A DNA stretch of 37,755 bases from assembly GCA_017423025.1 (NCBI GenBank), contig JAFPGC010000034.1, positions 1 through 37,755 of the forward strand, given 5' to 3'. The number at the start of each line of letters is the position of its first letter. Within the stretch, counting starts at the first letter, position 1. Positions 5,290 through 27,788 of this stretch are shown in pieces. The DNA is from Bacteroidales bacterium (GTDB lineage: Bacteria > Bacteroidota > Bacteroidia > Bacteroidales > UBA932). A program made the position numbers and the translations under genes. Below the pieces are notes generated by a model. It worked only from the letters and a program-made list of their open reading frames with translations. It was not told where the DNA came from and ran no database searches.

Positions 5290-6639
5290 ATGAAAAAATG
5301 GGTGTGTAGTCTGGCACTTGTCGGGCTCGTCGTTTTAGTTCCCCTAAGAGTGGATGCGCAGGAATTTTCCATGCGCACCAACCTGTTGTGGGACGCCGTT
5401 TCGGAGCCAAACATCGGCCTGGAATTTTCTGTGAGTGACCACTGGTCAGTGGGCGGGAACGCCGGTCTGAAGAGCTGGCCCCGCTGGCTGGCCTGGGACT
5501 GGGACGTTCAGAATCCCACCCACTGGCGAAACTTTGCTATAGTGCCCGAAGCCCGCTATTATTTCAATCAAGTTTACGACGGCCTGTTCCTGGCCTGTGA
5601 TGCCATCTATACCCATTACAACGTAGGTAGCGTTAAGTTCCCCTTTGGCCTCTATCCAGAGGTGAGGGACTACCGCCTTCAGGGAGATTTCTATGGCGGC
5701 GGTCTGTCGTTGGGCTATTCATGGTGGATTGCTCCCCATTGGCGCATCGAAGCTGAAGCTGGAGTGGGCGTTGGTTATGTGAAGGCGGATAAGTTTGAGT
5801 GTGCCCACTGTGGTTCACAGGTGGGAACCAAAGAGGGCGTGGCCCTGGTCCCCAAGCTCGGTATTAACCTGGCGTACAACTTCAAACGCCGTGAACAAAA
5901 GAAGCAAGAGATACTGGAAATCATTGCTCCCATGGAACCCGAGCCTCAGCCGGCAGTGGAACCTGAGCCTCAGCCGGTGGTGGAACCCGAGCCGCAGCCC
6001 GTTTCTGATCCCATTCTTCCCTTCCTGCAGCACCCCGTGGTGCGAATGGCCAGCGAGTATCAGCCCTATACTCCGCAACGCATACTCCGCAAGGAGAAGG
6101 GCGCGTTGTATGTATTCTTCCCGGTGGGCAATGCCGACGTCCGACGTTCCTTCACTGAAGGAAGCACGAGCCGTGACAATGGTCCCACCCTGGATGAAAT
6201 CATTGACGTAACGGACCAGATTCTTAAAGCTCCTATCGCACAGATTTCCTGCATTCAGATTATTGGCATGTCTTCCGTTGAGGGCGCCAGCGATAGGAAC
6301 CGTAACTTGTCTCTGGATCGCGCCCGTGCCCTGCAAAGATACATCCAGGATAAACTTCCAGTTCCTAGCGGACTCTTTGAGATTGTGGGTGGCGGCGAAG
6401 CATGGACAGAACTGAAAGATATTATACAGGACCTGAAGGCTGGCGTAGGTAAGAGTCAACTCTCCTCTGACCAGTTGGACCAGGTACTGGAAGTATTAGA
6501 GAATGACGGGGATGCCGCCAGCCGGGAGCGTAAGTTGAAGGCGCTGGACGGCGGCCGCGTGTACCGCATATTGGTAGAAACCCTTTTGAAAGACCTGCGT
6601 AATTCCGGTTACGTGCGGGTTTATATTGAAAGTAAATGA
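5290..6639 (+). CDS. DUF3575 / OmpA-like fusion protein, first gene of the fimbrial operon
   Basis: 449 residues. A signal peptide (1-23, ending VDAQ) precedes a DUF3575-type domain (about 24-200) rich in alternating strands typical of an outer-membrane barrel (RTNLLWDAVSEPNIGLEF start, LGINLAYNF end). A linker with three perfect-length EPEPQPxV repeats (216-239) follows. The C-terminal region (about 270-449) ends in an OmpA-like peptidoglycan-binding fold, with the motif SSVEGASDRNRNLSLDRARA near 328-347. DUF3575 genes often precede type V fimbrial genes in Bacteroidales, where they are thought to help export or anchor the system. The proline/glutamate linker would span the periplasm between membrane and cell wall. 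The stop overlaps an upstream in-frame ATG of the next gene, and the likelier ATG lies 17 bases on. Confidence 0.82.
   Translation: MKKWVCSLALVGLVVLVPLRVDAQEFSMRTNLLWDAVSEPNIGLEFSVSDHWSVGGNAGLKSWPRWLAWDWDVQNPTHWRNFAIVPEARYYFNQVYDGLFLACDAIYTHYNVGSVKFPFGLYPEVRDYRLQGDFYGGGLSLGYSWWIAPHWRIEAEAGVGVGYVKADKFECAHCGSQVGTKEGVALVPKLGINLAYNFKRREQKKQEILEIIAPMEPEPQPAVEPEPQPVVEPEPQPVSDPILPFLQHPVVRMASEYQPYTPQRILRKEKGALYVFFPVGNADVRRSFTEGSTSRDNGPTLDEIIDVTDQILKAPIAQISCIQIIGMSSVEGASDRNRNLSLDRARALQRYIQDKLPVPSGLFEIVGGGEAWTELKDIIQDLKAGVGKSQLSSDQLDQVLEVLENDGDAASRERKLKALDGGRVYRILVETLLKDLRNSGYVRVYIESK
5935..6006 (+). repeat. Three tandem 24-bp repeats coding EPEPQPxV
   Basis: In-frame near-identical 24-base units encode the proline-rich linker of the DUF3575/OmpA protein. 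Copies differ mainly at third codon positions, so they are older than a very recent expansion. Unit number may vary among strains. Confidence 0.8.
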
Positions 6640-6656
6640 TAAACAATACGCGTATT

Positions 6657-9134: not shown

Positions 9135-9163
9135 TAATTGAAAATATTAATATAAAAGTGATT

Positions 9164-11629: not shown

Positions 11630-11639
11630 TAAGTTACTG

Positions 11640-12680
11640 ATGCGTTTCGCAATTCGTTTAAGTGTCGTATTGTCGCTCCTGGCTGCAGTCTCTACGGGCT
11701 GCAGCTGGGTGGACGACGACTTGAGTGACTGCGAAACGGAATATACGCTGGATTACGAGTTACGCCTGGTCACCAATATGACCGCAGAACTTCAAACCCA
11801 GCTTTCCTTGGACACGGACCTGGCCGTTTCCACCGCTCTTAAGGACTACTTGAGCAATATCTTTACTGATTACGCCCACGATGTGGACCTGGGCTTCTAT
11901 GATGTGGAGGAAGATTCTGTGCTGCTGTACAGGGAGTCCCATATTATGGACGCCAATCAGACCAGTTATACCATCTTTATTCCGGTTAGGCAGTATATGC
12001 ACCTGGCTATGGCCAACGTATCCCGGAATCAGGAACTGGTATTCCGGGGTGCTGATTACTGTCACCGCGCCCAGTTGGCCCAGCAAGAGACGTTGGACAC
12101 CATTGCTCCCCACAGGGCCGGGATATTCACCGCCCGTCTTCCTATGGACATCAAGGAAGGGGAGGACCAGCAGTTTGACGTGAGCCTGTATATGGCTAAT
12201 TGTGCCTCTGCGCTGGTGATTGACACGTTGGGGAGCGGTATCAGGGATATGAAAGTGTACTTGGGTGGCTTTGCAACAGGTTTTAATATTTGCGATAGTC
12301 TGTACCGTTTTAACGATATTTCCCCCCTGGTCCGTCCCGACCGCATTGAAGTGAAAGGCTCAACCAGTCTTTGTTTTGCGGCCGCCCATTTCCCTTCCCG
12401 GGAGCCGGAGGTGTCCAAGACCATCATAGATGTAGACGATTCATCCACAATACCGGAAGGAGAGGACAACTTGTGGAAGGCTTGGATATATGTGTCATTA
12501 CCTGATGGCACCATTACCCAAAACGTTCTGGGTTTCAACTCTCCCATCCGTTCCGGCCATCTCAAACTATTGAAGGGCAAAGTCTATACAAATGGGGTGG
12601 TGGCAACAGAAGATCCCACCGTCACCGTAAGTATTGCCATTGACTGGGTGCCCGGTCTGGAAATTCCAGTTGATTTATGA
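11640..12680 (+). CDS. Mfa2/FimB-family fimbrial anchor lipoprotein
   Basis: 346 residues. The lipoprotein signal peptide ends STGC (Cys21), followed at once by the family's hallmark acidic stretch with a second Cys (WVDDDLSDCETEYTLDYELR). The body is beta-rich, with the IPVRQYMHLAMANV strand and a closing VTVSIAIDWVPGLEIPVDL strand typical of FimB/Mfa2 proteins (formerly DUF1812). In P. gingivalis Mfa2 and FimB anchor the fimbria in the outer membrane and limit its length; the same role is inferred here. The length is normal for the family. The gene follows the two large subunits, as mfa2 follows mfa1 in P. gingivalis, and its stop overlaps the next ATG by four bases (ATGA). Confidence 0.87.
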   Translation: MRFAIRLSVVLSLLAAVSTGCSWVDDDLSDCETEYTLDYELRLVTNMTAELQTQLSLDTDLAVSTALKDYLSNIFTDYAHDVDLGFYDVEEDSVLLYRESHIMDANQTSYTIFIPVRQYMHLAMANVSRNQELVFRGADYCHRAQLAQQETLDTIAPHRAGIFTARLPMDIKEGEDQQFDVSLYMANCASALVIDTLGSGIRDMKVYLGGFATGFNICDSLYRFNDISPLVRPDRIEVKGSTSLCFAAAHFPSREPEVSKTIIDVDDSSTIPEGEDNLWKAWIYVSLPDGTITQNVLGFNSPIRSGHLKLLKGKVYTNGVVATEDPTVTVSIAIDWVPGLEIPVDL

Positions 12681-14608
12681 TGAAAGGGTTGAAAATACTG
12701 GGGTTGATAACCTTATTGATTACGGCTTTCTCCTGCAAGAGAGAAAGCGTGGGAGGTTATGGTATTCTCAGTCAGGACAATCTGGAATCTGTTTCTCTGG
12801 CTTTGGGAGTGGGAGCAGATGTCCCTGTCACAAAAGGAGATCCGCTTGTTTTGATTGAAATGGACGAGGAGAACAATGTAGGGAGGTTCCGTGGTGTGGA
12901 TGCTCTGTTCTTGTTTCCTTTCGCATCACTTACTCCACTTACATCTGAATCTGAGTACGCCAGTCTTTCAAAGATGTCGGTGTTGCCGGCCTTTTATAGT
13001 GTGATGGGAAACAGCCGTTCCCATCTTTATCCCAAAGAAGTGGTTCTTGTACCCAGAGGTACCGGCACAGTATTGGCCTATGCGCGGGCAGCCCAGAGAA
13101 GCGAAGACCTCACAGTGGAACACCGCCACGCGTACGGCTCCCTTTCTCCTGTTGGCTTAAACCGTAATAAGGATCATTCCACAACCAGTGATTTGGGTTT
13201 TGATGCCGTCCCCATCTATAGCGGGACCTCCCTTCCCCAGGAGGGGACGAACATAGCGCAGGTCCTGACAAATATTGTGGGTCAGGTGTCCTTCACCGGG
13301 GAGGGCGCCTATTGCCCTTCCGGAAGCAGTGACTATACCAATATAGACATACCACCCGTCAAATGGAGTGCTGAAATGGAGAATGATGATTTCCGAGGAT
13401 GGTTCGAGTGGATGACAAACAAGGGACAGCTGATTCCCGGATCCGGCACCAATGTAGAGTATATGCTCTCCGAGTTGTACGAGTTCTTGAGTACATACGA
13501 GTGTGACGATCATACGGAGCTTTACTACGAACTGTACAACCACACATTCCCCGTAGTTTTTCGGAATAATCACAACCGCCCGATGACGGTGGCAGACCTC
13601 TACAACGGCCTTAGGGATGAGATTTTGGGCAGGATAGAGAAAGAGAATTTGGAGGTGAACGGAACCACCGTATCATTTAAAGAAGCCGATAACAACCTTC
13701 ACGCTTATCCGGCCAGCCGAGGGCTGCCCGACGGGGCCGCAGTCATTCGATGGAACGGCGTTGAATATACGGCTGTTGCAGACCAGCTGGACGGTATGGC
13801 ACCCTTGACAGCCTATTGCTACCCGCCGGAGCTCTGGTATTTTGCCAATACCACCATCAAGACATCGAAAACAGATCTTTCCGAATATTATGAAGATACG
13901 GAGGCCAACAAGGGCAAAACCTGGGCGGAGATTAAAGACTTGTATACCTTGTATACCGACGGTCCTACAGTAAAGCATTCTACGCTTTCCGTTGCGTTGG
14001 AAGATCCGCTTCATTTTAGTTGCAGTATGCTCCGGGCTACGGTAAAGGCAGAGTCTGCGTCCCTTACCGATGCCGCCGGCCAGTCGATTGCTGTCACGGA
14101 CGAGAAGTTTCCGCTTACGGGAGTGATTTTGGGCGGACAACGGAATTTGCGTTTTGACTTTTCCCCCAAGACCACGGGCGACGAATATTTCATGTACGAC
14201 AACCAGTTCAGTAATGACACCAATGGATATTTCGTTTATCTGACCGACCAGGAATCCGGAGTTTTCCGTTCATTTGTGTCTGAAACCGTGGATGGACAAG
14301 ATGTATATTTCTGCCTGGAGTTTCTCAACAACAGCAACGAAACCTTTGTGGGAGCTGAAGGAAACGTCCTGCCCGGATCCAAGTTCTATCTGGTGGGAAA
14401 GCTTGACAAACCCGGGAACGAAGACCGGGAAAATGGCCTTACCAGTGTTTTTATGAGAGATCACGTGACAGACGTGAAATGTTTGATAAAAACCCTGAAA
14501 GAGGCACATAACGGCGTTCCGGATATGGAGGCCCCTCGTATTACCCTGGGAATCCGTACCCAGATTACCTGGCAGCAAACAACTCCTGCCACTTTGATTC
14601 TGTCCTGA
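12677..14608 (+). CDS. Third, shorter Mfa1-like fimbrial lipoprotein
   Basis: 643 residues; lipoprotein signal with Cys20 (LLITAFSC). The start at 12677 overlaps the previous stop, and an adjacent second ATG at 12680 would remove one residue. The C-terminal half keeps diverged versions of the blocks in the two large subunits: CYPPELWYFANT, FPLTGVILGGQRNLRFDF, GSKFYLVGKLDKPG, SVFMRDHVTD and GVPDMEAPRITLGIRTQITW. It is thus an Mfa1-type fold, but shorter and more divergent, which suits an accessory or adaptor subunit rather than the main shaft. It lies after the anchor gene, in the position of the minor subunits mfa3-5/fimC-E in P. gingivalis; one-to-one correspondence is not claimed. Confidence 0.72.
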   Translation: MMKGLKILGLITLLITAFSCKRESVGGYGILSQDNLESVSLALGVGADVPVTKGDPLVLIEMDEENNVGRFRGVDALFLFPFASLTPLTSESEYASLSKMSVLPAFYSVMGNSRSHLYPKEVVLVPRGTGTVLAYARAAQRSEDLTVEHRHAYGSLSPVGLNRNKDHSTTSDLGFDAVPIYSGTSLPQEGTNIAQVLTNIVGQVSFTGEGAYCPSGSSDYTNIDIPPVKWSAEMENDDFRGWFEWMTNKGQLIPGSGTNVEYMLSELYEFLSTYECDDHTELYYELYNHTFPVVFRNNHNRPMTVADLYNGLRDEILGRIEKENLEVNGTTVSFKEADNNLHAYPASRGLPDGAAVIRWNGVEYTAVADQLDGMAPLTAYCYPPELWYFANTTIKTSKTDLSEYYEDTEANKGKTWAEIKDLYTLYTDGPTVKHSTLSVALEDPLHFSCSMLRATVKAESASLTDAAGQSIAVTDEKFPLTGVILGGQRNLRFDFSPKTTGDEYFMYDNQFSNDTNGYFVYLTDQESGVFRSFVSETVDGQDVYFCLEFLNNSNETFVGAEGNVLPGSKFYLVGKLDKPGNEDRENGLTSVFMRDHVTDVKCLIKTLKEAHNGVPDMEAPRITLGIRTQITWQQTTPATLILS

Positions 14609-16173
14609 TGCGCACGTTGAGGCTCATATGGCTCTTCTTCTTACCGGTCCTATTGCTGGCTGGTTGTGATCGCATTCCGGTTTTCCCCGAGGAGCTGGAA
14701 CAGCCCGAACTGGGACTTTATATTGAGATTCCAGGGCCAATGGCAACCAAGGCTGATGAAGGAGAGATTCCTTCCAAGTGGGCAGCTGAGTATGCCATCA
14801 AAACCCTTCAGCTTTGGATCTTTGAGAGTGCCGTCAATAATGAGGGGAAGCACGATTTGGTAAAATACATTCCCCTGACGCAGGCGCAATTCCCTGTGGA
14901 AGGCAATGTACGATACTATTCCTTCCCCGTGGATTCAGACTTTGCCCACAACCGCCCGGACGTGGATGTGTTCGTTGTGGCAAACGCGGCCTCCATAGGG
15001 TTAAAAGACGAAGACCTTGGGGATGAAACTTCTTGGGAAGAGTTGGAATTATTAAAGTTTGGTGGCTCTAACTTTGGTCCGGACCAGGACTTGGTAGTGA
15101 CGCCTTCGCTTCCCAATGGGCTTCCTATGTCCGGTGTAGGGAAAAACCTGAAACTGGAGGGGTCGGCACCGGTGCTGATGGTGGAGAAGACCGTTCAGCT
15201 TACGCGGGCTGTTTCCAAGATGCGTTTTGTTTTCTGCAAGACGATGAATGAGGCGGGAAGTGAGGCCAATGTAACTGTGAATTCTATCCAGGTGAACGGC
15301 GTGAACGGCTATATGGTTCCCAATGAGGAATACGTTTTTCCTGCTGGAGATACCCCCTGGCATTTCCCGGCTACATATTCCGATCAGGGTCTGTCGTTTT
15401 CATTTTCCCCTGCGTTGCAGCCTGTACAGAATAAGGATCCGCAGTCGTTGGTCTATAATAACCAGGACCCCGTGGCCTATGAGCAGTTGTTGGATAATGC
15501 CGTTGCGGCCGGAGAATTAAGTGATTGTGGCGTGGTTTACCTCAGAGAAACGGATCAGCTGCTCCAGGTGAGCCTTTCTTATACCATAGATGATACACCC
15601 AAACCGGCAATTTTTACCATGCAGGCCCCTCCTGAGGGCCCTTACCAGCCTGGCGATTTTGCCCGTAACCACAGTTGGACCGTATACGGCTATTTCTTGA
15701 GCGACCGGAATATCAAACTTACCAGCACTGTTCTTCCCTGGACGTACAAGGAAGAAACGCTTGTGAACACCGACGATGCCATATCGGTGGATTCCACCAA
15801 TCCGTTCACCATAGAGCCGCCTCACGAAGCCACGTGGGTTAGTTCTAATGAAAAAGGTGGTGATAACTATAATGTATATGTGGCATCTGGCGAAACGGTG
15901 GTAGTGAAAGTGGCCATAGAGGCGCCTAAGGGTGGTAAGTTGGTGGTCCAGGCCAAAGGTTCTGCCGGTTCTTTCGATGTTTATCCCAAATCCGAAGACA
16001 TTACGGGTGACCCTATTACCATTACGGTTTCGCCTAAGGCAGGTGTGAGTTACAATCCCGATGTGGAAACCTTCGTTACCCTATCTTTTACGGTAGAGCA
16101 CCATGACCGTGAAACAGATATTAACACCGAGGTTTTCAATAAGGATGTTTATCGTTTTTATTTAACTGAATAA
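14608..16173 (+). CDS. Fimbrial-operon lipoprotein, probable minor subunit
   Basis: 521 residues with a clear lipoprotein signal (LPVLLLAGC, Cys20). After the signal come a beta-strand (LGLYIEIPG) and a KADEGEI stretch like those of fimbrillin-type proteins, then IKTLQLWIFES and VDVFVVANAAS strands, which recur in Bacteroidales minor pilins. The last 130 residues (from about 395) form a separate beta domain with VVVKVAIEAPKGGKLVVQAKG. I do not recognise a specific named family. Its position between an Mfa1-like subunit and the two large putative tip proteins suggests an adaptor or minor subunit. The start overlaps the previous stop by one base (TGATG), indicating translational coupling. Confidence 0.65.
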   Translation: MRTLRLIWLFFLPVLLLAGCDRIPVFPEELEQPELGLYIEIPGPMATKADEGEIPSKWAAEYAIKTLQLWIFESAVNNEGKHDLVKYIPLTQAQFPVEGNVRYYSFPVDSDFAHNRPDVDVFVVANAASIGLKDEDLGDETSWEELELLKFGGSNFGPDQDLVVTPSLPNGLPMSGVGKNLKLEGSAPVLMVEKTVQLTRAVSKMRFVFCKTMNEAGSEANVTVNSIQVNGVNGYMVPNEEYVFPAGDTPWHFPATYSDQGLSFSFSPALQPVQNKDPQSLVYNNQDPVAYEQLLDNAVAAGELSDCGVVYLRETDQLLQVSLSYTIDDTPKPAIFTMQAPPEGPYQPGDFARNHSWTVYGYFLSDRNIKLTSTVLPWTYKEETLVNTDDAISVDSTNPFTIEPPHEATWVSSNEKGGDNYNVYVASGETVVVKVAIEAPKGGKLVVQAKGSAGSFDVYPKSEDITGDPITITVSPKAGVSYNPDVETFVTLSFTVEHHDRETDINTEVFNKDVYRFYLTE

Positions 16174-16175
16174 TT

Positions 16176-18728
16176 GTGAGGCGCGTTCCAGCATATCTTC
16201 TTATCTTTTGCCTGTTGTTGTTTTCTTGCGTGAAGGAGCATCAGGAAGAGGGCTCCGGCATCATCCTCCGGGTTCAGTGCGACCAGACGGCAGCTGTCAC
16301 CCGTGCTGAGGTGTCCGGTGAGAAGGAAGGCATCAAGGAGTTGAAGGAGAATTACTTGAAAACGATAGATTTCTTCTTCTATAAAGGAGGATCCCCTCTG
16401 GCCAGTGACGAGGCCCTGTTGCACCGCCGTTATCAGTCCGGTAGCACCACCGGCTCGGCCGAGTTCCGTGTCCAGCTAACTTCCCAGGAAGTCCATGACC
16501 TTTTTCCCGAGAACGGGAGTAAAGTTACCGTTTTTGCCCTGGTGAATTATCCGGGCGACGAGACCTTCCCCGGGGGAACATCCCGTCAGGCTCTGGAGGC
16601 GCTTGCGGTTACTACGGATTTTGTATTGTCGGCCGGCGAATATGTCCAGCCCTGGTTCCTGATGAGCGGAACACAGGTGATTACCTGCAACGACGTTACC
16701 CATATCGTTACGGCTACGGGAGAGATCAGTCTCAAACGTTATGCCTGCAAGATGACGGTGGATGTGAAAGTGCTCCCGGAAGTACGGAAGAAAAAGGATG
16801 ACAGTTCGGAAGAGGTTTATGAGGTGTGGGAACCCATCCTGGAAGATTTGGCCGTTTATATGGACAATGCCGTAAAAACGGTGTCCTTGTCCGGAGAATA
16901 TGCATCTCCCGGGAATGATGACTATTTCTCCTATACCAAAAACAGGAGAAAGTATGTCAAGAAGAATGCGGACAACTCCTATTCTCCCATTTACGGGGTT
17001 GATGGGGAAACCGGTTACTATTACTCGGTGCCCATGTATATGTACCCCCAGCACTGGCATTTTGCCTCAGCTGAGGGAGGGGACCGGGAACCCTACTTGA
17101 AACTGGTTCTTCCCTGGGCCCGTAAGGCCGACGAAGAACACGGCATTGTGGGCACCTCCCGCCAGTTCTATTACAAGATTGTGCTTCCCAACAGCATTAC
17201 GGAAACGGACGATGAGGGATGGGATGGCAGTTTTGTAAGGAATTGCTGGTATCATATGAATATTGAGGTGGGCTACCTGGGGTCCGACAACGACGGCGCC
17301 AGCGTACCTGTGGACGGCTTTTGCTACTTGGTGGACTGGCAGGACAAGAATGTGGTTATCAAGAAGGCAACCATTGGTAAGGCCCGGTACCTGTCCGTAG
17401 ATAAGAACGAATATGAGTTGCAGGATGCCTCGCATACCCAGATTAACTACGTTTCAAGTCATGAGGTAGTGATTAAGCCAAATTCCCTTCGCGTTACGCG
17501 TCCATATTACGGGGATGCCGAAGAGGGCTATAATAAGGATCTGGGCGGTACCGTGAGGAAGGTGAATGAAGAAGACCCTGAGAAAGCATATTATCCCGTG
17601 GAGTCCAAATATTTGGATCTGACCTACAGAGACAACGCGTATTGGGAGAATCCTGCATGTCTGTCGTGGCTTACCCAGAACGATGTGGGGAGCTATTTCT
17701 CCTTCATCCACCAGTTGATAGACGATTATAAATCGGTGAAGTTCGACTATTCACCCTACCGGATTGCTTTCACCTTGGTTCACGAGGACAAGAAAGATGA
17801 TCCAAACGCAGATTATAGCCAGGATATAATAATTTGGCAGTATCCGGGTGTTTATATTGAGGCCCATCCCAATTCGGACACTACATTTGAATTTATACAG
17901 ATGATGGCTGATGGAAAAAGGTCGTACTGGTCGTCCGAAAACTGGGGATATGTTTTTGTGGACAATCAAAAACTTCACCGAAATGAAACGCCAGATGTTC
18001 AAGAGCATAACCTGAGTTGGTGGGCAAAATACTATAGGGAAAAGGGTTACACCTTTGAGAATGACGAGGATTTCCATTGGCGCGCAATCTGGTATACAGG
18101 CGGTAGCCGGGATATCTTTAATATCAACGTGACGGTGATTCCGCAGGGAACCGATTTTATCATCGGTGACCCGCGCGCGGACGAGATAGATAATTTGAAG
18201 GTTCTCCCCAAGACTTTCCACTCGGCTGAAGCGCTATATTATGACAAAAGCAGTGAGCGTCCCCTACGGTATTATTATCCTACCGAAAGCTCCAGTCGTA
18301 CGGAGGATATGCTGGCTCCCAGTTACCGGATTGCTTCCAAGTGCGGCGGCGTAGAGTTTGGAGGTGTTACTATGGAGCAGGCGCTTTACCGCTGCGCCAC
18401 GTATCAGGAAGACGGTTTTCCGGCCGGGCGCTGGCGGCTTCCCACCAAGGGTGAAATCAAATTTATTGCTATGCTGTCGGCTAACAAAGCCTTTACTTTT
18501 CTGTTTTCCCTCAATGGAGAGTATTGGTCGGCCAACGGTGCTATCAGAGTATCTTCGGGAAAAGTAGAGGACTCTGCCAGCACCAAGGCTCTACCCCGCT
18601 GCGTTTACGACAGTTGGTATTGGGATGACATAGATACAAAGCGGCAAAAGGAACAGAAAAATAGGACGTTTGATGAGTTTTTGCTTGAGCAGCGAAAATC
18701 TTTTGTATGGGGGGATGAGCCTAGATAA
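16176..18728 (+). CDS. Large fimbrial lipoprotein with lectin-like (FISUMP/DUF1566-like) C-terminus, GTG start
   Basis: 850 residues. The only start giving the lipoprotein signal (MRRVPAYLLIFCLLLFSC, Cys18) is GTG at 16176, two bases after the previous stop; no in-frame ATG precedes it. The N-terminal two-thirds is a beta-rich fimbrillin-like region (DFFFYKGGSPLASDEALLHR, SRQFYYKIVLPNS, CWYHMNIEVGYLG). At about 705-815 lies a module with the motifs ALYRCATYQEDG, GRWRLPTKGEI and LNGEYWSANG. This pattern belongs to FISUMP/DUF1566-type domains, related to C-type-lectin/sulfatase-modifying folds. Such a module at the end of a fimbrial protein suggests ligand binding at the tip. That role is inferred from the domain and from position near the operon end. 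The GTG start may lower expression, as suits a tip protein. Confidence 0.7.
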   Translation: MRRVPAYLLIFCLLLFSCVKEHQEEGSGIILRVQCDQTAAVTRAEVSGEKEGIKELKENYLKTIDFFFYKGGSPLASDEALLHRRYQSGSTTGSAEFRVQLTSQEVHDLFPENGSKVTVFALVNYPGDETFPGGTSRQALEALAVTTDFVLSAGEYVQPWFLMSGTQVITCNDVTHIVTATGEISLKRYACKMTVDVKVLPEVRKKKDDSSEEVYEVWEPILEDLAVYMDNAVKTVSLSGEYASPGNDDYFSYTKNRRKYVKKNADNSYSPIYGVDGETGYYYSVPMYMYPQHWHFASAEGGDREPYLKLVLPWARKADEEHGIVGTSRQFYYKIVLPNSITETDDEGWDGSFVRNCWYHMNIEVGYLGSDNDGASVPVDGFCYLVDWQDKNVVIKKATIGKARYLSVDKNEYELQDASHTQINYVSSHEVVIKPNSLRVTRPYYGDAEEGYNKDLGGTVRKVNEEDPEKAYYPVESKYLDLTYRDNAYWENPACLSWLTQNDVGSYFSFIHQLIDDYKSVKFDYSPYRIAFTLVHEDKKDDPNADYSQDIIIWQYPGVYIEAHPNSDTTFEFIQMMADGKRSYWSSENWGYVFVDNQKLHRNETPDVQEHNLSWWAKYYREKGYTFENDEDFHWRAIWYTGGSRDIFNINVTVIPQGTDFIIGDPRADEIDNLKVLPKTFHSAEALYYDKSSERPLRYYYPTESSSRTEDMLAPSYRIASKCGGVEFGGVTMEQALYRCATYQEDGFPAGRWRLPTKGEIKFIAMLSANKAFTFLFSLNGEYWSANGAIRVSSGKVEDSASTKALPRCVYDSWYWDDIDTKRQKEQKNRTFDEFLLEQRKSFVWGDEPR

Positions 18729-21700
18729 TGAGAAAGTGGTTATTCATATGGATGGTCCTGGTGGGCCTTGTATCTTGCTCCCGTGAACAGGACGCGGAGC
18801 GGGAAGATGATGCCTCTCTGGAGGGAAAGATGGTGACGGTCACGTTCTCCGTAACGGCCGACTGTATGGAAGCGCCTACCAAGGCGCTGGACGAGACGGC
18901 TGAACTGCACAACCTCTATCTGGCGGTATTCGGGCGCTCCGGCTACCTGAAGCAGTATGTTCAGGCACAAAATCTTACTTGTAAAGACGAAAATGGGGAT
19001 AAAATGTACCAAGAATACGATGATTGGCAAGGAGAGACAAAGACAGGAGTCAAATACACTTTCACGGCTCAGTTGGCTTTGTCCGAGAACCCCCGCATCA
19101 TCCATTTCATCGGGAATGCCCCAAGTTCTATTTCCTATGATAATTGTGAGGTGGTTCTTCCAGCCCTTATGTCGGAAAACCCCGGAGACTGCTCCTTCTG
19201 GCAAATGATAGAGGTGCCTCATATCCGTGCCAAGAAATATAAGGGGTCTGTCAAAACAGATGGCAAAGGTAACAAACTGGTTCCGGGTGACTATATTGAT
19301 ATAGACGGCAATAAAATCACCAGTGGAACGGGGTATATTCCGGAGGACGACACGAAAGTTCTTTTAAATGAGATCCCCCTCATCCGTAACTGGTCCAAGA
19401 TAGTGGTGGAAAAGGACACGGATCCAGGTGATCCTGACTACCCGGAAGAACAGGATAGGGAAAACGACTGCTACTTTGACCCCATCAGCTATGCCGTAGT
19501 GAATGCACCTACCCGCGGTACGCTGGTCCCGCATTGTGCCAACACCGGCTTTGTTCAGGATTATCAAAAGAAGTCTCACGATGAGTTGCTGAGAGAGGGC
19601 TATACGGGTAATATGCCGGATCTCAGTGTCTTTGACTCTGACCTTTCCAATATTCCCGGCGAGGAGTTGTTCGAGAATCCCAAACTCCCTGCAGCCAAAG
19701 GGAAAGTGGCTGATGCTTCAGATCCCAACGCGGGCGTATATCTTTACGAACGTGCTATACCCACGGATAAGATACCGGCTACTTATGTCATTGTATATGG
19801 ATACTATAGGGCGGTGGACAATCCGGATGACAGAGATCCCGCCAATAATGCATACTGCTATTACAAGATTGATTTGATGTCCAAAGCAGATGACGATGCT
19901 TCGCCTCAGTATTACCCGATTTTCCGCAATTTCAAGTATCAGATTCTAATCCAAAAGATCCGCTCCAAGGGCCATCCCACCCCCCGCGCCGCCGCAACCG
20001 CCGTGGGTAGTGGTGATGTCTCGGCCGATATCAATGCACGCCATTTGTCTGATATTTCCGACGGGGTGGGCCGTTTGATGATTACCCCTTGGATGGCGCA
20101 TACTTTTGTGGAAGCGCGTACTGAAGAAGATGAGGCTAAAGGGCCTATTCTCTTTGCGGCGTTTATGAAAGATGTGCACAAGGAAGAATATGATGATGGA
20201 ACGGTCAAGGTGAGGGCTCTGGATATGGCCAAGGGAGTTGACCCTGTTATTGAGACTCTTTCTATTGATTCTACGCCAAACGCTGAAGGCTGGCGGGCTA
20301 TTCATTTTACAACATATCCCAAGAGCGATCGCACCCGAAGCCAGACCATCCGTGTGACAGGATCCCATGCATCCGGCAGTCTGTACCGGGATATTGTAAT
20401 TACCTTGATGCCCTATCAGACCATGTCCCTGAGCTGCCCGTCCCGGGTTCTGGCACTGAAGGGAGAGGAAGTGACCCTGTCCATCAAGATTCCGGACGGG
20501 CTTTCGGAGAGTATGTTCCCGCTGGACTTTACCATTGAACCGGAGGATATGACCCTTACCCCAGACAACTCGGGAGCAGAATCCCTACCGGTGGGTTGGG
20601 GAACGTCCATATCCAAGAATGACGGCTACAAAGGAAAGCAGTCATTCCATTATACACGCACCCTCACCTGGGCAGAATACAGTGATTATACAACCATGCC
20701 CCGTGAAGTGGATGAGAATGGAAAGTATTGGAGAACGTTTTATGCTCACTTCTGCACCAACCGGGATTTTAGCGAGACCACCCTTTGGGTGTATAACGAT
20801 TACTTTGGAGAACCGACGAGCATCGCTTTTACCAACTATGAGTTGGCCGAATTCCGGAATCTGTACTTTACGTCTCCGGTGATTGTTCCCGACGTCGGTG
20901 AGAATCCTATGCCAGCTACGGCTACTTTCTATGTCACTGAGCTGCCGGAAGGAGGATTTCCCCAGATTCATCTTACTCCTATTGGGGTGACGGATATTAA
21001 AGTTGATGGAGCATCCGAATCCAATCAACCTGTGTGGAACGAAACAGAAGGTTATTTCACTTATACACCCACATCCAGAACAGTAAATCTGAGTATGTTG
21101 GTAAACGGCACCACTTCGGATGTGCAAGTCACTCTTGAGGCAGAAGGTTATGAATCCAACGTTATCCGTCCTTATCGCTTCTCCGATGCCGGTTTGCGTG
21201 TGGGTGCGCGTTATGGTACTGATTCCAATCTCAGAAAAACGTTTTCTGGAGTGATAAGCGGCTATACTGATGAGGAAAGCGGTATCTGGGACAATTTTGT
21301 GACAAGCAAAGATGAGAAAGTGGTCTTCGCTTATCTTGACGATCCTGCCAAACCCAATGTTCCTGTGACGCTAGTCTTAAAAGGCCTGGTGACGGATTCC
21401 GGTAACAAAACCACCTATTCATTTAGTCCCACCGGTCCTACGGGTACTAATTCCGTAGAGAACTATCACGAGATTCTTCTCAAGGCATCTGCGGGGACAA
21501 CTCCTGTTTCCTTCACGCTTACCGCTGAGGGTTATTTGCAGGAAAAGCATATCTATCCACGCTATACCGGTACCGTCAAGGGGGTACTTGTTGGGCGAAA
21601 TCAGAATGAGAAGGTGTTTAGACCCAATAACGATTATGGTTTTTCCACTACGAATCCTAAATTCACAATTAAGAATAGTTGGAACGTTAGTTTCAATAAG

Positions 21701-22099
21701 ATTTACACCTTGAACAGTAATGGTGTTATCCTTAATGGAGGTGAAGAAGAACCCTTTGTTATAACCGTGGAGTCTGTGGAGGAGAATTATAATATCTCTC
21801 TCATAAGAATTGAGACTGCTCCTGTTGCCACTTCTTGGGTCTGGAAAGACGACAGCGGACATATCAATGCCACGGTCAAAGCCAAGACATCTGCCGAAGG
21901 GGCTGAATTCAAAGAAATTCCTAATAGTTTCTGTATTGCTCAGGGTGATAAAGAGTATTTTTACGCCACCATTCCTAACCCCACATCTGGCAATCCGGGC
22001 CCGGTTCAGGTCCAGATAACGCTAACTGTTCCTCAGGGGCAGCAAATATGCTTCTGCGGTATGGCCTTACGATCCTTTAATGGAACATTCCAGAATTAG
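18728..22099 (+). CDS. DUF4906-type large fimbrial lipoprotein, putative tip adhesin
   Basis: 1123 residues, the largest and last gene of the operon; lipoprotein signal with Cys17 (VLVGLVSC). Near residues 390-460 it has the block YYPIFRNFKYQILIQKI, then SGDVSADINARHLSDISDGV and a MITPWMAHTF strand, which I associate with DUF4906 proteins of Bacteroidales fimbrial loci. The C-terminal half is a series of beta-sandwich-like segments (LKGEEVTLSIKIPDG; GTSIAFTNYEL-like strands; PVTLVLKGLVTDSG), consistent with stacked Ig-like or BACON-like domains. By size and place at the end of the operon it is the best candidate for the tip adhesin. The start overlaps the previous stop by one base (TAATG). 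The DUF4906 label is from memory; the adhesin role is inference. Confidence 0.7.
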   Translation: MRKWLFIWMVLVGLVSCSREQDAEREDDASLEGKMVTVTFSVTADCMEAPTKALDETAELHNLYLAVFGRSGYLKQYVQAQNLTCKDENGDKMYQEYDDWQGETKTGVKYTFTAQLALSENPRIIHFIGNAPSSISYDNCEVVLPALMSENPGDCSFWQMIEVPHIRAKKYKGSVKTDGKGNKLVPGDYIDIDGNKITSGTGYIPEDDTKVLLNEIPLIRNWSKIVVEKDTDPGDPDYPEEQDRENDCYFDPISYAVVNAPTRGTLVPHCANTGFVQDYQKKSHDELLREGYTGNMPDLSVFDSDLSNIPGEELFENPKLPAAKGKVADASDPNAGVYLYERAIPTDKIPATYVIVYGYYRAVDNPDDRDPANNAYCYYKIDLMSKADDDASPQYYPIFRNFKYQILIQKIRSKGHPTPRAAATAVGSGDVSADINARHLSDISDGVGRLMITPWMAHTFVEARTEEDEAKGPILFAAFMKDVHKEEYDDGTVKVRALDMAKGVDPVIETLSIDSTPNAEGWRAIHFTTYPKSDRTRSQTIRVTGSHASGSLYRDIVITLMPYQTMSLSCPSRVLALKGEEVTLSIKIPDGLSESMFPLDFTIEPEDMTLTPDNSGAESLPVGWGTSISKNDGYKGKQSFHYTRTLTWAEYSDYTTMPREVDENGKYWRTFYAHFCTNRDFSETTLWVYNDYFGEPTSIAFTNYELAEFRNLYFTSPVIVPDVGENPMPATATFYVTELPEGGFPQIHLTPIGVTDIKVDGASESNQPVWNETEGYFTYTPTSRTVNLSMLVNGTTSDVQVTLEAEGYESNVIRPYRFSDAGLRVGARYGTDSNLRKTFSGVISGYTDEESGIWDNFVTSKDEKVVFAYLDDPAKPNVPVTLVLKGLVTDSGNKTTYSFSPTGPTGTNSVENYHEILLKASAGTTPVSFTLTAEGYLQEKHIYPRYTGTVKGVLVGRNQNEKVFRPNNDYGFSTTNPKFTIKNSWNVSFNKIYTLNSNGVILNGGEEEPFVITVESVEENYNISLIRIETAPVATSWVWKDDSGHINATVKAKTSAEGAEFKEIPNSFCIAQGDKEYFYATIPNPTSGNPGPVQVQITLTVPQGQQICFCGMALRSFNGTFQN

Positions 22100-22383: not shown

Positions 22384-22415
22384 TTTGTATTTCACAGATT
22401 TTGTTCGTATTTTTG
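22384..22415 (+). promoter_or_regulatory. Promoter of the toxin-antitoxin-like operon
   Basis: TTTG (22384-22387), 20 bases, then TATTTTTG (22408-22415), matching both Bacteroidota elements. Transcription should start only about ten bases before the ATG at 22432, so the mRNA leader is very short. Confidence 0.7.
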
Positions 22416-22430
22416 TACAAAATATTGTAC
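22415..22430. promoter_or_regulatory. Palindromic operator before the antitoxin gene
   Basis: GTACAAAATATTGTAC pairs GTACAA with TTGTAC around a 4-base centre. It overlaps the last base of the -7 box and the expected transcription start and ends one base before the ATG. Phd/YefM antitoxins usually repress their own operon through such palindromes. Confidence 0.6.
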
Positions 22431-22431
22431 C

Positions 22432-22686
22432 ATGCAAGTAACATCCATTTCGGCCTTCAGGGCCAACATCAAGCAGTACTATGACAATGTCCTCCTCACG
22501 GAGGAGCCTCTTATCATTACCAAAGGAGATACGGGAGCCGTGCTCATTCCCCTTAAGGAATACAATGCCATGCAGCGCAGTCTGGAGAACCTGAGGAACC
22601 AGCCTCTGCTGAAGGATATCCGTGAGGCCACCCTGCAGATGGCGGCAGGTCAGCTCATCGAAGTAACGGACATTGACGCCCTATGA
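22432..22686 (+). CDS. Phd/YefM-family antitoxin
   Basis: 84 residues, the normal length. The N-terminal part (SISAFRANIKQYYDNVLLTEEPLIITK, then GAVLIPLKEYNAMQRSLENL) is the Phd/YefM DNA-binding fold, with the typical strand-turn-strand ITKGDTGAVLIPL. The C-terminal tail (about 60-84) would wrap the toxin. It acts in the cytoplasm as a toxin neutraliser and autorepressor. The palindrome directly before the ATG fits autoregulation. The stop overlaps the toxin ATG by four bases (ATGA), the standard antitoxin-first arrangement that ties synthesis of the two proteins together. Confidence 0.9.
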   Translation: MQVTSISAFRANIKQYYDNVLLTEEPLIITKGDTGAVLIPLKEYNAMQRSLENLRNQPLLKDIREATLQMAAGQLIEVTDIDAL

Positions 22687-23426
22687 AACTGTACCTGAGC
22701 CCCAAGGCCCAATACCAGTACCAGTGTCTGAAGGGTCGCAGTGTCCAGTACGCCGAGCAGGTAAAAACCATCTTACTGGACATCAAGGAGCATCCTGCAG
22801 AGGGCTTGGGCACGCCTGAGGCCGTCGATTTTTCCCTTGCCGGGTACTGGGAGCGCCGCTTCAACGGAAGCGGCATGGTTACCTATTATTATGAGGGTGA
22901 CTATGTGGTCATTATCAGCGTCGGCAACGAACTCCTGCCTTCCCACGAAGAGTTGCCCCTGAAGTTGCAGGAAATGTCCAAGCAGGATTATGCCCAGGTT
23001 ATCAGGCAAATGGAGGCCAACCGGGGACATGGAGATGACCCTAAGGTAGGAATCTTCTGGTACAACGTGGCCTGGAAGGAGCTGTTTGGCGTGGTTTCCC
23101 ATCCCGTCCGGGATTATTCCAAGGCCAATGCATCCGATGGGCGCATCACCTGTTCGGAAATGCATGAAGATGTCTGGCGTAAGGAATACAACAGGCAAAA
23201 GCACCACGGAGACGGCAAGGGGCCCTTCATAGGCGCTTATGAGAACAAGCCTCGAGGGCGGGTATTCTATAATATGGAAGAGGGCCGATTTATAGTGGCC
23301 GTCGGCAAATGGCTGGAGGAAAATCCCGAAGCCCGGCAGCTCATTCTGGATGAATTTGACCTTCCTGCCGATAAAACCACTTTCGAGTATGCCATCCACT
23401 GGGACATCGGCCACTGCTGGCGCTAA
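22683..23426 (+). CDS. YoeB-fold protein with degenerate active site fused to an extra C-terminal domain
   Basis: 247 residues, three times the length of YoeB. Residues 1-84 align with E. coli YoeB without gaps: shared residues include MKL at the start, Pro38, Gly41, Gly43, Pro45, Glu46, Leu52, Gly54, Trp56, Arg58-Arg59 and Tyr68. Of the YoeB catalytic set, Glu46 is kept, but Arg65 is Met, His83 is Glu and Tyr84 is Leu, so mRNA cleavage by this domain is doubtful. Residues about 121-247 form a second domain: KVGIFWYN start, EDVWRKEY, ENKPRGRVFYN (187-197), GRFIVAVGKWL, and an ending with His239, His244 and Cys245. It resembles small stand-alone proteins found widely in bacteria with the PRGRVxYN motif, whose function I do not know. 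The antitoxin pairing suggests a toxin whose activity may have moved to the C-terminal domain. Confidence 0.8.
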   Translation: MKLYLSPKAQYQYQCLKGRSVQYAEQVKTILLDIKEHPAEGLGTPEAVDFSLAGYWERRFNGSGMVTYYYEGDYVVIISVGNELLPSHEELPLKLQEMSKQDYAQVIRQMEANRGHGDDPKVGIFWYNVAWKELFGVVSHPVRDYSKANASDGRITCSEMHEDVWRKEYNRQKHHGDGKGPFIGAYENKPRGRVFYNMEEGRFIVAVGKWLEENPEARQLILDEFDLPADKTTFEYAIHWDIGHCWR

Positions 23427-25601: not shown

Positions 25602-27788
25602 TTAGTCGCCGGCCACGGTAAACCGGATGGTGGCTGAGTTGCCGTCGCCGTCTACTACCGTAAGGGTGTGCTTGCCCGAAGCGGGTGCCAGCCGGAGTTC
25701 GTGGAAGAAGCGGGTTTCGCCCACATAAGTCTGGTCCAGGTGCCACCAGAGCGTAGCATCGGAGCGGTGATGCGCCACGCGGAAGACGGCCCCCTCCACC
25801 TGCCCGCTTAGCTGCCGTGGAAGGTAAAGCGTGGTACCGGAATGAGGATAAATGAACTCAATCTCCTGGGAGGGAAGGGCCGATCGGGCCCCCGCATACT
25901 CCGGGTGGTGCGGCCTGTAGAACCACTCCATGGCCGGTGTAAGCACAAATTCGCCTGTGCGATGATAAGGGCAGGGCTCGCTCTGGAGTCCCGCGGCGGG
26001 AATAAGCATCTCACGGGCCGGGCAGTCAGGCGTGGCCAGCATGCCGGACTGGGTACAAACGTTGGCATAAACGCCAACGTTTGCATTTAATGCCATTTCG
26101 TCATGCCCGACTTGATCGGGCATCTCAAACCATTCATCGCTGGCGGGAAGCAGGTTGAGGATATCGAACATTACCGGACCGGCGGTGCGGGCTCCGGTGA
26201 GGCCGGGCACACCGTGCCCGTCGGCATTGCCGGCCCACACGCCAATGGTGTACGCGGGCGTCATACCCACGGCCCACGCATCGCGGAAACCATAGCTGGT
26301 GCCGGTCTTCCAGGCCGCTTTCCGCACGGAGCGGATGAGCCGCCAGTCCAGCTCGTCCGGCCGGTTAACCTCTTGCAAGGCCTCCAAAGTGTACCACACG
26401 GAAAGAGTCCCGCTGGTGGCCATGGCAGAATAGGCCCTGGTGATTTCGTCCAGGCGACCTTCTCCTCCTCCCAGGATGAGGGAGAGGCCATAGTAGTCGG
26501 GGCTTTGGGTAAAGGTGGTGAGGCCGGCCTTCTGGAGAAGGCTGTGGAATTTAGGCACGCCGTACTGCCGCAGCAGGAACACGGCCGGGACGTTAAGGGA
26601 GCGGGCCAGGGCCTCGGAGGCTGGTACGGCACCGTAGAACTGCCGGTCAAAATTCTGCGGGGCAAAGCCACCCAGGTTCACAGGAATGTCCGGCAGCAGG
26701 GTGTGGGGCAGGATTTCACCCTCCTGCAGCGCGGCGGCAAACAGGAACGGTTTGAGAATACTCCCCGTGGAGCGCGGCGAGGCGGCAATATCTACCTGCA
26801 CGCCGGTCCGCTCCCGCTCCGGCGAGGCATTGCCTACATAAGCGACTATCTCCCCGGTGGCATTATCTATAACCACGACGGCCATGTCGGCTACGCCCTC
26901 CTTGGCCAGGTCGTCGGACTGCCGGTCCGCCACGGCCGATACGGATTTCTGAAGCGGCAGTCGGATTCCGGTCCGGGTCCTCACGCCCTTGGGGCAGCGT
27001 TCGACCCAGTGCAAGGCATAAGAGGGCAGGGGCAGGGGCGCATCGGGCAAAGGCTCTTCCAGCGCCGCTTCATAGGTATCGGCCGATATATCCCCGTGCT
27101 CCAACAGCCGTTTCAGCAGGCGGTTGCGCTTTTGGAGGAGGTCCTCCCGGCCCTTGCCCAGGTGTAGCGTGGAGGGTGCGTTGGGCAGTACGGCCAGGGT
27201 GGCAGCCTCGGCCCAGGAGAGCTCGGATGCCGGTCGGCCAAAATAGCGCCAGGCAGCGGCCTCCAGCCCCACTACATTCCCCCCGAAGGGTGCGTGGGAA
27301 GCATACAGGGACAGGATGCGCTCCTTGGGATAGCGCAGTTCCAGCCGCATGGCCAGCACGGATTCAATGAGTTTCTGCCAGACGGTGCGTTCTTTCTGGC
27401 GGCTCAGGCGGATGACCTGCATGCTAAGGGTGCTGCCGCCGCTTACCACATGGCCGGAGTGGAGATTCTGCAGCAAGGCCCGCCCCATGGCCACGGGGTT
27501 TACGCCCGGGTGCCACCAGAACTGCCGGTCCTCAAACTGCACCAGCGCCGTCGCAAAGCGCCCCGGAACGGTATCACAGGGCGGAAACCGCCACTGCCCG
27601 TCGGCCGCAATGCGCGCCCCCAGCAGCTCCCCTTCGGCACTCTCCACCACCGTGGAGTAGGAGACCCCTTTAAACAGGTCCTTTGGAAGACAAAACAAGT
27701 AGGCTAGCAGAAGAACTGCCAACCCTAAAGAGATCCCCGGCCGGAGCCGGGGATGACGAGGTCTTTTATGGTCGGGTTGTCCGGCCAT
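25602..27788 (-). CDS. pbpC: Penicillin-binding protein 1C (bifunctional glycosyltransferase/transpeptidase)
   Basis: 728 residues, inner membrane with the enzyme domains in the periplasm. A membrane helix lies at about 18-34. The glycosyltransferase domain (about 55-225) has catalytic Glu86 in FEDRQFWWHPG and the GGSTLSMQ motif at 117-124. The transpeptidase domain (about 295-545) shows SxxK (Ser343-Lys346), SxN (Ser397-Asn399) and KTG (494-496). A C-terminal BiPBP_C-type beta domain (about 640-726) completes the PBP1C layout. The start shares one base with the stop of the macroglobulin gene (TAATG), and yfhM-pbpC linkage is widely conserved. Two small palindromic elements lie inside the frame: one codes part of the cytoplasmic tail (RHPRLRPGIS) and the other sits in an apparent insertion at about 556-577. 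Neither touches a catalytic motif. Confidence 0.95.
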   Translation of the reverse strand: MAGQPDHKRPRHPRLRPGISLGLAVLLLAYLFCLPKDLFKGVSYSTVVESAEGELLGARIAADGQWRFPPCDTVPGRFATALVQFEDRQFWWHPGVNPVAMGRALLQNLHSGHVVSGGSTLSMQVIRLSRQKERTVWQKLIESVLAMRLELRYPKERILSLYASHAPFGGNVVGLEAAAWRYFGRPASELSWAEAATLAVLPNAPSTLHLGKGREDLLQKRNRLLKRLLEHGDISADTYEAALEEPLPDAPLPLPSYALHWVERCPKGVRTRTGIRLPLQKSVSAVADRQSDDLAKEGVADMAVVVIDNATGEIVAYVGNASPERERTGVQVDIAASPRSTGSILKPFLFAAALQEGEILPHTLLPDIPVNLGGFAPQNFDRQFYGAVPASEALARSLNVPAVFLLRQYGVPKFHSLLQKAGLTTFTQSPDYYGLSLILGGGEGRLDEITRAYSAMATSGTLSVWYTLEALQEVNRPDELDWRLIRSVRKAAWKTGTSYGFRDAWAVGMTPAYTIGVWAGNADGHGVPGLTGARTAGPVMFDILNLLPASDEWFEMPDQVGHDEMALNANVGVYANVCTQSGMLATPDCPAREMLIPAAGLQSEPCPYHRTGEFVLTPAMEWFYRPHHPEYAGARSALPSQEIEFIYPHSGTTLYLPRQLSGQVEGAVFRVAHHRSDATLWWHLDQTYVGETRFFHELRLAPASGKHTLTVVDGDGNSATIRFTVAGD
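26056..26083. repeat. Perfect 11-bp inverted repeat inside pbpC
   Basis: CAAACGTTGGC and GCCAACGTTTG flank a 6-base loop (ATAAAC) within codons for NANVGVYANV of PBP1C. It lies 15 bases from the palindromic element at 26098-26126. No T run follows, and it is within a gene, so it is not a terminator. Confidence 0.8.
26098..26126 (-). repeat. Small palindromic element, copy 1 (in-frame in pbpC)
   Basis: On the minus strand: GAGAT, stem GCCCGA/TCGGGC around TCAAG, then ATGACGA. It shares flanks and layout with the copies at 27730-27759 and 36611-36637, but the stem bases differ while still pairing. It encodes residues around EMPDQVGHDE of PBP1C, in what looks like an extra segment before VCTQSGMLATPDCP. 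Confidence 0.75.
27730..27759 (+). repeat. Small palindromic element, copy 2 (in-frame near the pbpC start)
   Basis: On the plus strand: GAGAT, stem CCCCGG/CCGGGG around CCGGAG, then ATGACGA. It has the same flanks as copy 1 in the opposite orientation relative to pbpC. It is read as RHPRLRPGIS in the cytoplasmic tail of PBP1C just before the membrane helix. Confidence 0.75.

Follow-up and report, generated by a model that had tools for sequence, protein, structure and literature searches.

What is held under control in a toxin-antitoxin operon whose second gene begins like the toxin YoeB, has lost residues of the YoeB active site and then runs on into another domain? This question is raised by a locus in the window, the whole stretch of 37,755 nucleotides of Bacteroidales DNA that was analyzed here. 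The draft genome from which the window comes (87% completeness) has 88 contigs, of which the window is number 40, and one copy of the fusion was found in it. The sequence-only reading that preceded this work had described a Phd/YefM antitoxin gene, an ATGA overlap with the gene of the fusion protein, and an operator palindrome ahead of both. All three were borne out: the antitoxin matches its Pfam family (Table 1), its TGA stop (22684-22686) overlaps the ATG start of the fusion gene (22683-22685), and the palindrome is an inverted repeat, GTACAA-N4-TTGTAC, at 22415-22430. The DNA ahead of the antitoxin gene also contains TATTTTTG, a candidate Bacteroidota -7 promoter box (consensus TAnnTTTG). 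Farther upstream lies a run of large genes, all in one direction, with lipoprotein-like starts (6636-22099), the last of which (18728-22099) has a Fimbrillin_C match (PF15495).

Table 1. Features of the antitoxin-fusion locus, in window coordinates. CTD, C-terminal domain.
Feature	Position	Strand	Basis
Candidate Bacteroidota -7 promoter box, TATTTTTG	22408..22415	+	sequence, compared with the consensus TAnnTTTG
YefM-type operator: cores TGTACA (22414-22419) and TGTACC (22426-22431), 12 bp centre to centre	22414..22431		sequence; geometry as in PMC7730913
Phd/YefM-family antitoxin, 84 aa	22432..22686	+	PF02604, E 7.8e-14 (Pfam)
Fusion protein, 247 aa	22683..23426	+	start overlaps antitoxin stop (ATGA)
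YoeB-like domain, residues 1-84, lacking catalytic R65/H83/Y84; putative antitoxin-binding adaptor	22683..22934	+	PF06769, E 7e-8; catalytic columns; charge
Variable linker, residues 85-109	22935..23009	+	mean pairwise identity 0.31 in 34 fusions
CTD, residues 110-247; putative effector	23010..23423	+	constant residues across 76 family rows
PRGR motif of CTD, residues 190-193	23250..23261	+	P190 in 75, R191 in 76, G192 in 76, R193 in 75 of 76
HWD motif of CTD, residues 239-241	23397..23405	+	H239 in 76, W240 in 76, D241 in 71 of 76

The fusion is widespread among Bacteroidales

The sequence-only reading had allowed that the fusion might exist in this genome alone, as a chance read-through. This was ruled out by a genome survey, which recovered 36 distinct full-length fusions, all from Bacteroidales. 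In a set of 101 genomes, the source genome among them, the whole protein had some match in 27 and a full-length match in 8. Among 400 genomes of the genus, 101 matched the fusion profile, a count that includes ordinary YoeBs and stand-alone CTDs, and 29 had a match covering at least residues 13-246. Matches to the CTD were found in 13/393 genomes sampled from the order (two of them weak) and in 2/395 sampled from the phylum, with the source genome included in both samples. In a collection of species genomes (84,980 species by its description), 256 relatives of the CTD were confirmed, and the 80 that are listed consist of 39 of the fusion type (L031-L068 and L070) and 41 stand-alone CTDs. The named relatives are Bacteroidales, and rumen or faeces appears in many of the record titles.

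The YoeB-like domain has lost its catalytic residues and kept its core

Residues 13-80 of the fusion match the Pfam family YoeB_toxin (PF06769) with 32.8 bits (cut-off 27), and the score against the NCBIfam YoeB equivalog (TIGR02116), 26.5 bits, lies far below its cut-off of 51.8. The sequence-only reading would have fallen had the N-terminal domain not folded like YoeB/RelE, a condition that was examined here at the level of these sequence profiles. In YoeB, as PMC3814384 describes it, E46 is the general base, R59 and R65 serve the transition state, H83 is the general acid and Y84 contacts the mRNA. We compared these columns between 34 aligned fusions, an alignment that excludes the cut or broken L034, L047, L057, L065, L067 and L070, and 15 of the stand-alone YoeB-type matches from related genomes. 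The stand-alone YoeBs keep E46, R59, R65 and H83 in 15/15 and Y84 in 14/15. Among the fusions, R65 and Y84 are kept in 0/34, E46 in 6/34 and R59 in 12/34; H83 is kept in 1/34 (L064), and because the H83 and Y84 columns stand beside a gapped region, this match is possibly an alignment accident.

Set against the 15 stand-alone YoeBs, the substitutions that had been claimed for the window protein (M65, E83 and L84) are real. The accompanying claim, that E46 and the Trp56-Arg58-Arg59 core are retained, is correct for the window protein, which has only E46 and R59 of the five RNase residues, but does not extend to its relatives. Because E46 and R59 are lost in most of them, the degeneration goes deeper than the first reading of the single sequence had seen.

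Other residues of the YoeB core persist in the 34 fusions: G41 in 32, G43, P45 and R58 in 33 each, W56 in 31 and Y68 in all, and the only invariant residues of the domain are M1, K17 and Y68. The mean net charge of the YoeB domain is -1.1 in the fusions versus +5.2 in the stand-alone YoeBs, and a gap as large arose in 0/100000 label permutations, a procedure that ignores kinship. Judged by its residues, the YoeB domain of the fusions is catalytically dead.

Antitoxin and operator are retained with the fusion

The proposal of an antitoxin-binding scaffold would have been in difficulty if most full-length homologues had no antitoxin as neighbour. An antitoxin gene was found upstream of 34 of the 35 distinct full-length fusions with usable upstream DNA, a count from which L032 is excluded, as the contig start cuts its upstream DNA, and in which the antitoxin of L148 is called by pattern match only. 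The one exception, L063, is the only full-length fusion known without an intact antitoxin gene, of which it retains just the C-terminal tail, and it is also the only one that is missing G43, P45 and R58. This pairing of antitoxin loss with core loss is a single case, instructive but not a statistic.

An ATGA-type overlap joins the genes in 29/32 antitoxin-fusion pairs examined, and the C-terminal tail of the antitoxin is acidic in the 32 aligned. Operators of the form GTAC-N8-GTAC precede 26/31 loci with enough upstream sequence (0.005 expected by shuffling), and the remaining five have a one-base variant in one operator core. The YefM and Axe operators are described as having TGTACA cores 12 bp apart (PMC7730913). 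Catalysis and basic charge have been lost while the core, the antitoxin and the operator have been kept, which is the pattern expected of an antitoxin-binding adaptor.

Divergence of the antitoxin was also compared with that of the two parts of the fusion. With L154, a second kind of fusion considered below, left out, the partial correlation was 0.62 with the YoeB domain versus 0.44 with the CTD, both beyond all 2000 permutations; with L154 included, the values were 0.80 and 0.24, respectively, and are partly driven by that locus. This co-divergence gives modest support to the adaptor reading, and the antitoxin tracks the CTD too.

The C-terminal domain belongs to a strongly conserved family

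The two domains of the fusion evolve at different rates. Mean dN was 0.213 in the CTD and 0.667 in the YoeB domain, which had the larger value in 555/561 pairs, and 48 of the 51 invariant columns in the 34 aligned fusions lie in the CTD. The dN/dS ratios, for which only three close pairs were usable, were low for both domains. Across 76 family rows (28 fusions, 42 others and 6 phage proteins), M110, G123, F125, W126, H161, W165, Y186, R191, G192, W210, H239, W240, G243 and W246 are constant. The sequence-only reading had pointed to a terminal His/His/Cys; its first histidine, H239, is present in 76/76 rows, whereas H244 is present in 52 and C245 in only one. The invariant aromatic, histidine and arginine residues are suggestive of a pocket for binding or catalysis.

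The CTD had no convincing match in Pfam, NCBIfam, PHROGs or PADLOC (four proteins were searched against PADLOC), and its profile found no relative among PDB sequences beyond a chimera chain (E 1.2) that was judged a chance match. A GNAT acetyltransferase family, PF17668, reached 14.1 bits with the window CTD (cut-off 25) and gave E values of 0.5 or less in 3/69 CTD rows (best 0.0046); this and further sub-threshold profile matches were likewise judged to be chance.

Stand-alone homologues, for which an HMM search had been proposed along with the original interpretation, do exist, 41 of them among the matches listed. All 41 loci are free of a Phd/YefM-type antitoxin in the DNA scanned, which extended at least 1.2 kb upstream, and of a YoeB domain in the same DNA. 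In 31 further stand-alone, phage or helix-N loci (with some overlap), neither was found. The helix-N loci (L116, 1366-1965; L117, 1492-2127; L118, 1339-1941) encode the CTDs nearest to the fusion type, at 45-51% identity, behind a different, probably helical N-terminal stretch that replaces the YoeB domain, and they have no Phd/YefM-type antitoxin. A Fic-family gene (PF02661), a toxin-antitoxin gene of another kind, lies two genes upstream of the L117 CTD.

Among the neighbours of stand-alone CTDs, none of the 25 largest gene clusters occurred in more than four stand-alone loci, with the exception of an antisense frame over the CTD gene itself (7 loci). In L124 (1477-2614), a stand-alone CTD gene is followed by an unassigned gene of 85 residues and, 0.3 kb downstream of the CTD, by a ParE-family toxin gene (PF05016), a gene order which indicates that a stand-alone CTD can adjoin a toxin-antitoxin pair. 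A distant CTD in L112 (1075-1923) occupies the N-terminal part of a 282-residue protein, with a region of ~120 residues behind it.

Relatives were also sought in mobile DNA. GenBank phages and PLSDB plasmids contained no match to the window CTD or to the stand-alone CTD L081, and a scan of IMG/VR with the window protein gave no relative. Profile scans of IMG/VR recovered ten loci with CTD relatives, some of them near-identical, on contigs of 34-202 kb, and the YoeB domain is absent from all ten. The viral status of these contigs is that assigned by IMG/VR; 3/8 neighbouring proteins tested match a PHROG.

A similar YoeB domain is joined to another CTD subfamily

At one further locus, L154, a Phd-type antitoxin accompanies a YoeB-like domain that also lacks the catalytic residues, with TGTAC repeats in the upstream DNA. 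The whole L154 protein is 31% identical to the window fusion, and its CTD is 54-55% identical to the stand-alone CTDs L119 and L120. In the CTD tree, L154 groups with L119-L121 and L124 (95/89), while the YoeB-domain tree, built from few columns and with a long branch for L154, places it on the fusions' side (split 99/99). By these comparisons, L154 is a similar, apparently dead YoeB domain joined to a different CTD subfamily. A first clade test had indicated an independent origin (p 0.000285), and was rejected after its constraint was seen to displace L116-L118, rows that lie inside the fusion group. When these helix-N rows were dropped, a single clade of fusion CTDs gave p = 0.365; because this is the fair test, we make no claim that the domains were fused twice independently. 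The placement in the YoeB tree also fits one lineage of dead YoeB domains that came to carry a different CTD. In 150 genomes around that of L154, no second copy of this type was found.

Natural variants separate the parts of the module

Several loci have lost one part and kept another. The CTD is missing or interrupted, with the antitoxin and YoeB domain retained, in L012, L057, L157 and L160. The antitoxin is gone, or present as a tail only, with the CTD frame retained, in L034, L063 and L065, and in these antitoxin-less loci the YoeB part has a broken frame (L034), a decayed core (L063) or is split from the CTD (L065). Multiple parts are broken in L155/L067, L156, L158 and L162. Most queries were CTDs, hence CTD-keeping loci are over-represented in this sample. 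The variants fit a conditional effector or, as well, a need for both domains. The listed CTDs without a Phd/YefM antitoxin (41/41), together with L034, L063 and L065, argue that the CTD is not strongly and constitutively toxic, and it is probably not constitutively lethal.

The surroundings of L065 (5202-9293; the same locus as L161, G1175 C18) form a toxin-antitoxin island, next to which lies a gene for a penicillin-binding protein like the one at window 25602-27788. The island holds pairs of a small protein and a PIN protein (PF13470) and a HigB/HTH pair (PF09907, PF01381). The CTD stands behind one PIN gene, and the dead YoeB domain ends with the last residues of a PIN protein, an arrangement that looks like an exchange of 3' ends.

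A proposed antitoxin-controlled effector and the alternatives

We consider it somewhat probable that the operon is a YefM-YoeB module in which the toxin half was converted into an adaptor that places a CTD effector under antitoxin control. The antitoxin and the dead YoeB domain would form the usual complex, which would act on the two TGTACA-type sites to repress the operon and would keep the fused CTD scarce and perhaps inactive. A drop in the labile antitoxin, by protease action or by translation shut-off (e.g. phage infection), would then lift repression and leave the CTD free to act. Repression and holding are what the antitoxin family, the conserved operator, the acidic tail and the fold core would predict, and release upon antitoxin loss is proposed by analogy with other type II modules. 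The original idea of an adaptor with a new effector is therefore supported as far as antitoxin control of an effector is concerned; that the CTD is a new toxin in need of neutralization is not supported, given the antitoxin-free CTDs and the CTD frames that persist where the antitoxin was lost. Since phages carry the CTD and it also stands alone, it is likelier to be a conditional effector, with a possible link to phages, than a constitutive killer.

The pocket-like set of invariant residues, rich in aromatics with histidine and arginine, would also suit a sensor or ligand-binding CTD that modulates the antitoxin/YoeB complex, making the module a self-regulated switch without a toxin. Such a switch agrees with the strict form of the operator in 26/31 loci and with stand-alone CTDs that need no Phd/YefM-type antitoxin. 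However, the sole output of the switch would be the module's own transcription, and the stand-alone and phage CTDs suggest an activity of their own, so we regard this explanation as unlikely.

The natural variants bear on another explanation, in which the YoeB domain has stayed toxic by taking on another target or chemistry, in the way that ParE attacks gyrase, and the CTD plays an accessory part. ParE sets a precedent, as a RelE fold without RNase residues (as described in PMC11980606), the four loci without an intact CTD keep the antitoxin and YoeB domain, and the damage or separation in antitoxin-less L034, L063 and L065 falls on the YoeB part, whereas the CTD frame persists. However, the CTD queries favoured CTD-keeping loci, in L065 a YoeB domain occurs although no antitoxin of the Phd/YefM type was found there, the evolutionary rate of the domain is about three times that of the CTD, and with only M1, K17 and Y68 invariant, no conserved polar surface for a new active site is visible. 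A YoeB domain that is still toxic thus appears a shade less likely again than a sensory CTD.

If harm needed both domains, their separation in antitoxin-free L065 would be expected, as it would be if the dead YoeB domain docked in the ribosomal A site and so brought the CTD to ribosomes or mRNA, with the antitoxin blocking docking. YoeB is described as contacting the 70S ribosome extensively (PMC3814384), and of the helix positions given there, position 32 is basic in 23/34 fusions (8/15 stand-alone YoeBs) and position 35 in 8/34 (0/15). Other positions speak against delivery to the ribosome: no fusion (0/34) has a basic residue at position 21 or 25 (9/15 and 6/15 stand-alone, respectively), position 22 is basic in 9/34 (10/15) and position 36 in 1/34 (5/15), R59, which contacts G530, is retained in 12/34, and the positive charge of the domain is gone. 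We think docking of this kind improbable. That the fusion is the decaying remnant of a selfish toxin-antitoxin module is very improbable, since deletions, frameshifts, stops or recombination in eleven loci (L012, L034, L057, L063, L065, L067/L155, L156, L157, L158, L160 and L162) have to be weighed against the 36 distinct full-length fusions, of which 34 come with a complete antitoxin frame, and against 51 invariant columns, 48 of them in the CTD.

Relation to known systems

The operon resembles YefM-YoeB in that the antitoxin comes first, the genes are coupled, the operator cores TGTACA lie 12 bp apart, as in the operators described in PMC7730913, and the YoeB domain scores above the Pfam cut-off. 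It differs in that the fusion lacks the catalytic residues, has the opposite net charge and misses the TIGR02116 equivalog threshold. In addition, the YoeB toxin is a single domain of ~84 residues ending in His-Tyr, whereas the fusion runs to residue 247, with ~160 residues added as linker and CTD.

A survey of multidomain BECR-fold toxins (Gerdes 2025; PMC11980606) describes YefM-YoeB and RHH-YoeB fusions, PtuZ and ToxM, and in PtuZ a PIN-like domain without catalytic residues is joined to a BECR-fold domain. Judged by sequence profiles, the present operon likewise encodes a RelE/YoeB-fold (BECR) domain in a multidomain protein, together with a further conserved domain. In the survey's examples, however, what has been added is either an antitoxin, or a membrane segment followed by one more domain, or a PIN-like domain that is dead. 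The abstract, outline and sections 20 and 27 of PMC11980606 describe no YoeB with a C-terminal effector, and the paper notes that its account omits many BECR proteins with several domains. A fusion of a YoeB domain with a C-terminal effector is likewise unannounced in the titles and abstract openings of the open-licence papers searched.

Two other systems invite comparison. ParE-type toxins share a RelE fold without RNase residues, according to PMC11980606, but the present domain is of YoeB lineage by Pfam, evolves fast and is fused to a conserved CTD. PfiT of phage Pf4, a member of the ParE/RelE superfamily, is described in PMC13048266 as a RelE-superfamily toxin with a C-terminal extension; that extension is one 15-residue helix that shapes the toxin-antitoxin complex and is not a separate domain.

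If the adaptor reading is true, toxin-antitoxin modules are more than a toxin and its antidote: the antitoxin-binding fold of a toxin can be reused as a handle through which an unrelated protein is controlled, and some annotated YoeB or RelE toxins with extra domains might be mis-described. A broader proposal, which we advance tentatively and hold at somewhat less than an even chance, is that evolution may keep dead toxins as handles, a dead YoeB domain allowing a YefM-type antitoxin to regulate and restrain any domain joined to it, that this platform took up at least two subfamilies of a new effector domain, one that is also borne by large phages and perhaps carried in the virion, and that the CTD would act as a new effector in conflicts between phages and bacteria. 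The CTD family is strongly conserved, spans Bacteroidales and large rumen phages, has no model that was found in the four family libraries and should be easy to assay.

A shared leader in phage loci with the CTD

The rumen phage contigs L125, L130 and L131 have a common type of leader, MKLRINE or MKLKIPE. Written as M-x(2-6)-[IL]-x-E, it starts 11/13 ORFs in L125 (0.9 expected), including the CTD homologue itself, 6/18 in L130 and 5/12 in L131; it is absent from L126-L128 (0/13, 0/20 and 0/14 ORFs), and bacterial loci have it in 24/436. The internal proteins of phage T4 are reported to carry short capsid-targeting leaders that are cleaved after Glu (PMC3012670, PMC5694885). The likeness lies in the look of the leader, a short one that some phage CTD homologues share with many neighbouring ORFs. 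Because the L125-type leader resembles that of T4, some phage CTDs may be carried in the virion, which we offer as a lead only, and many of the small L125, L130 and L131 proteins may likewise be packaged and injected.
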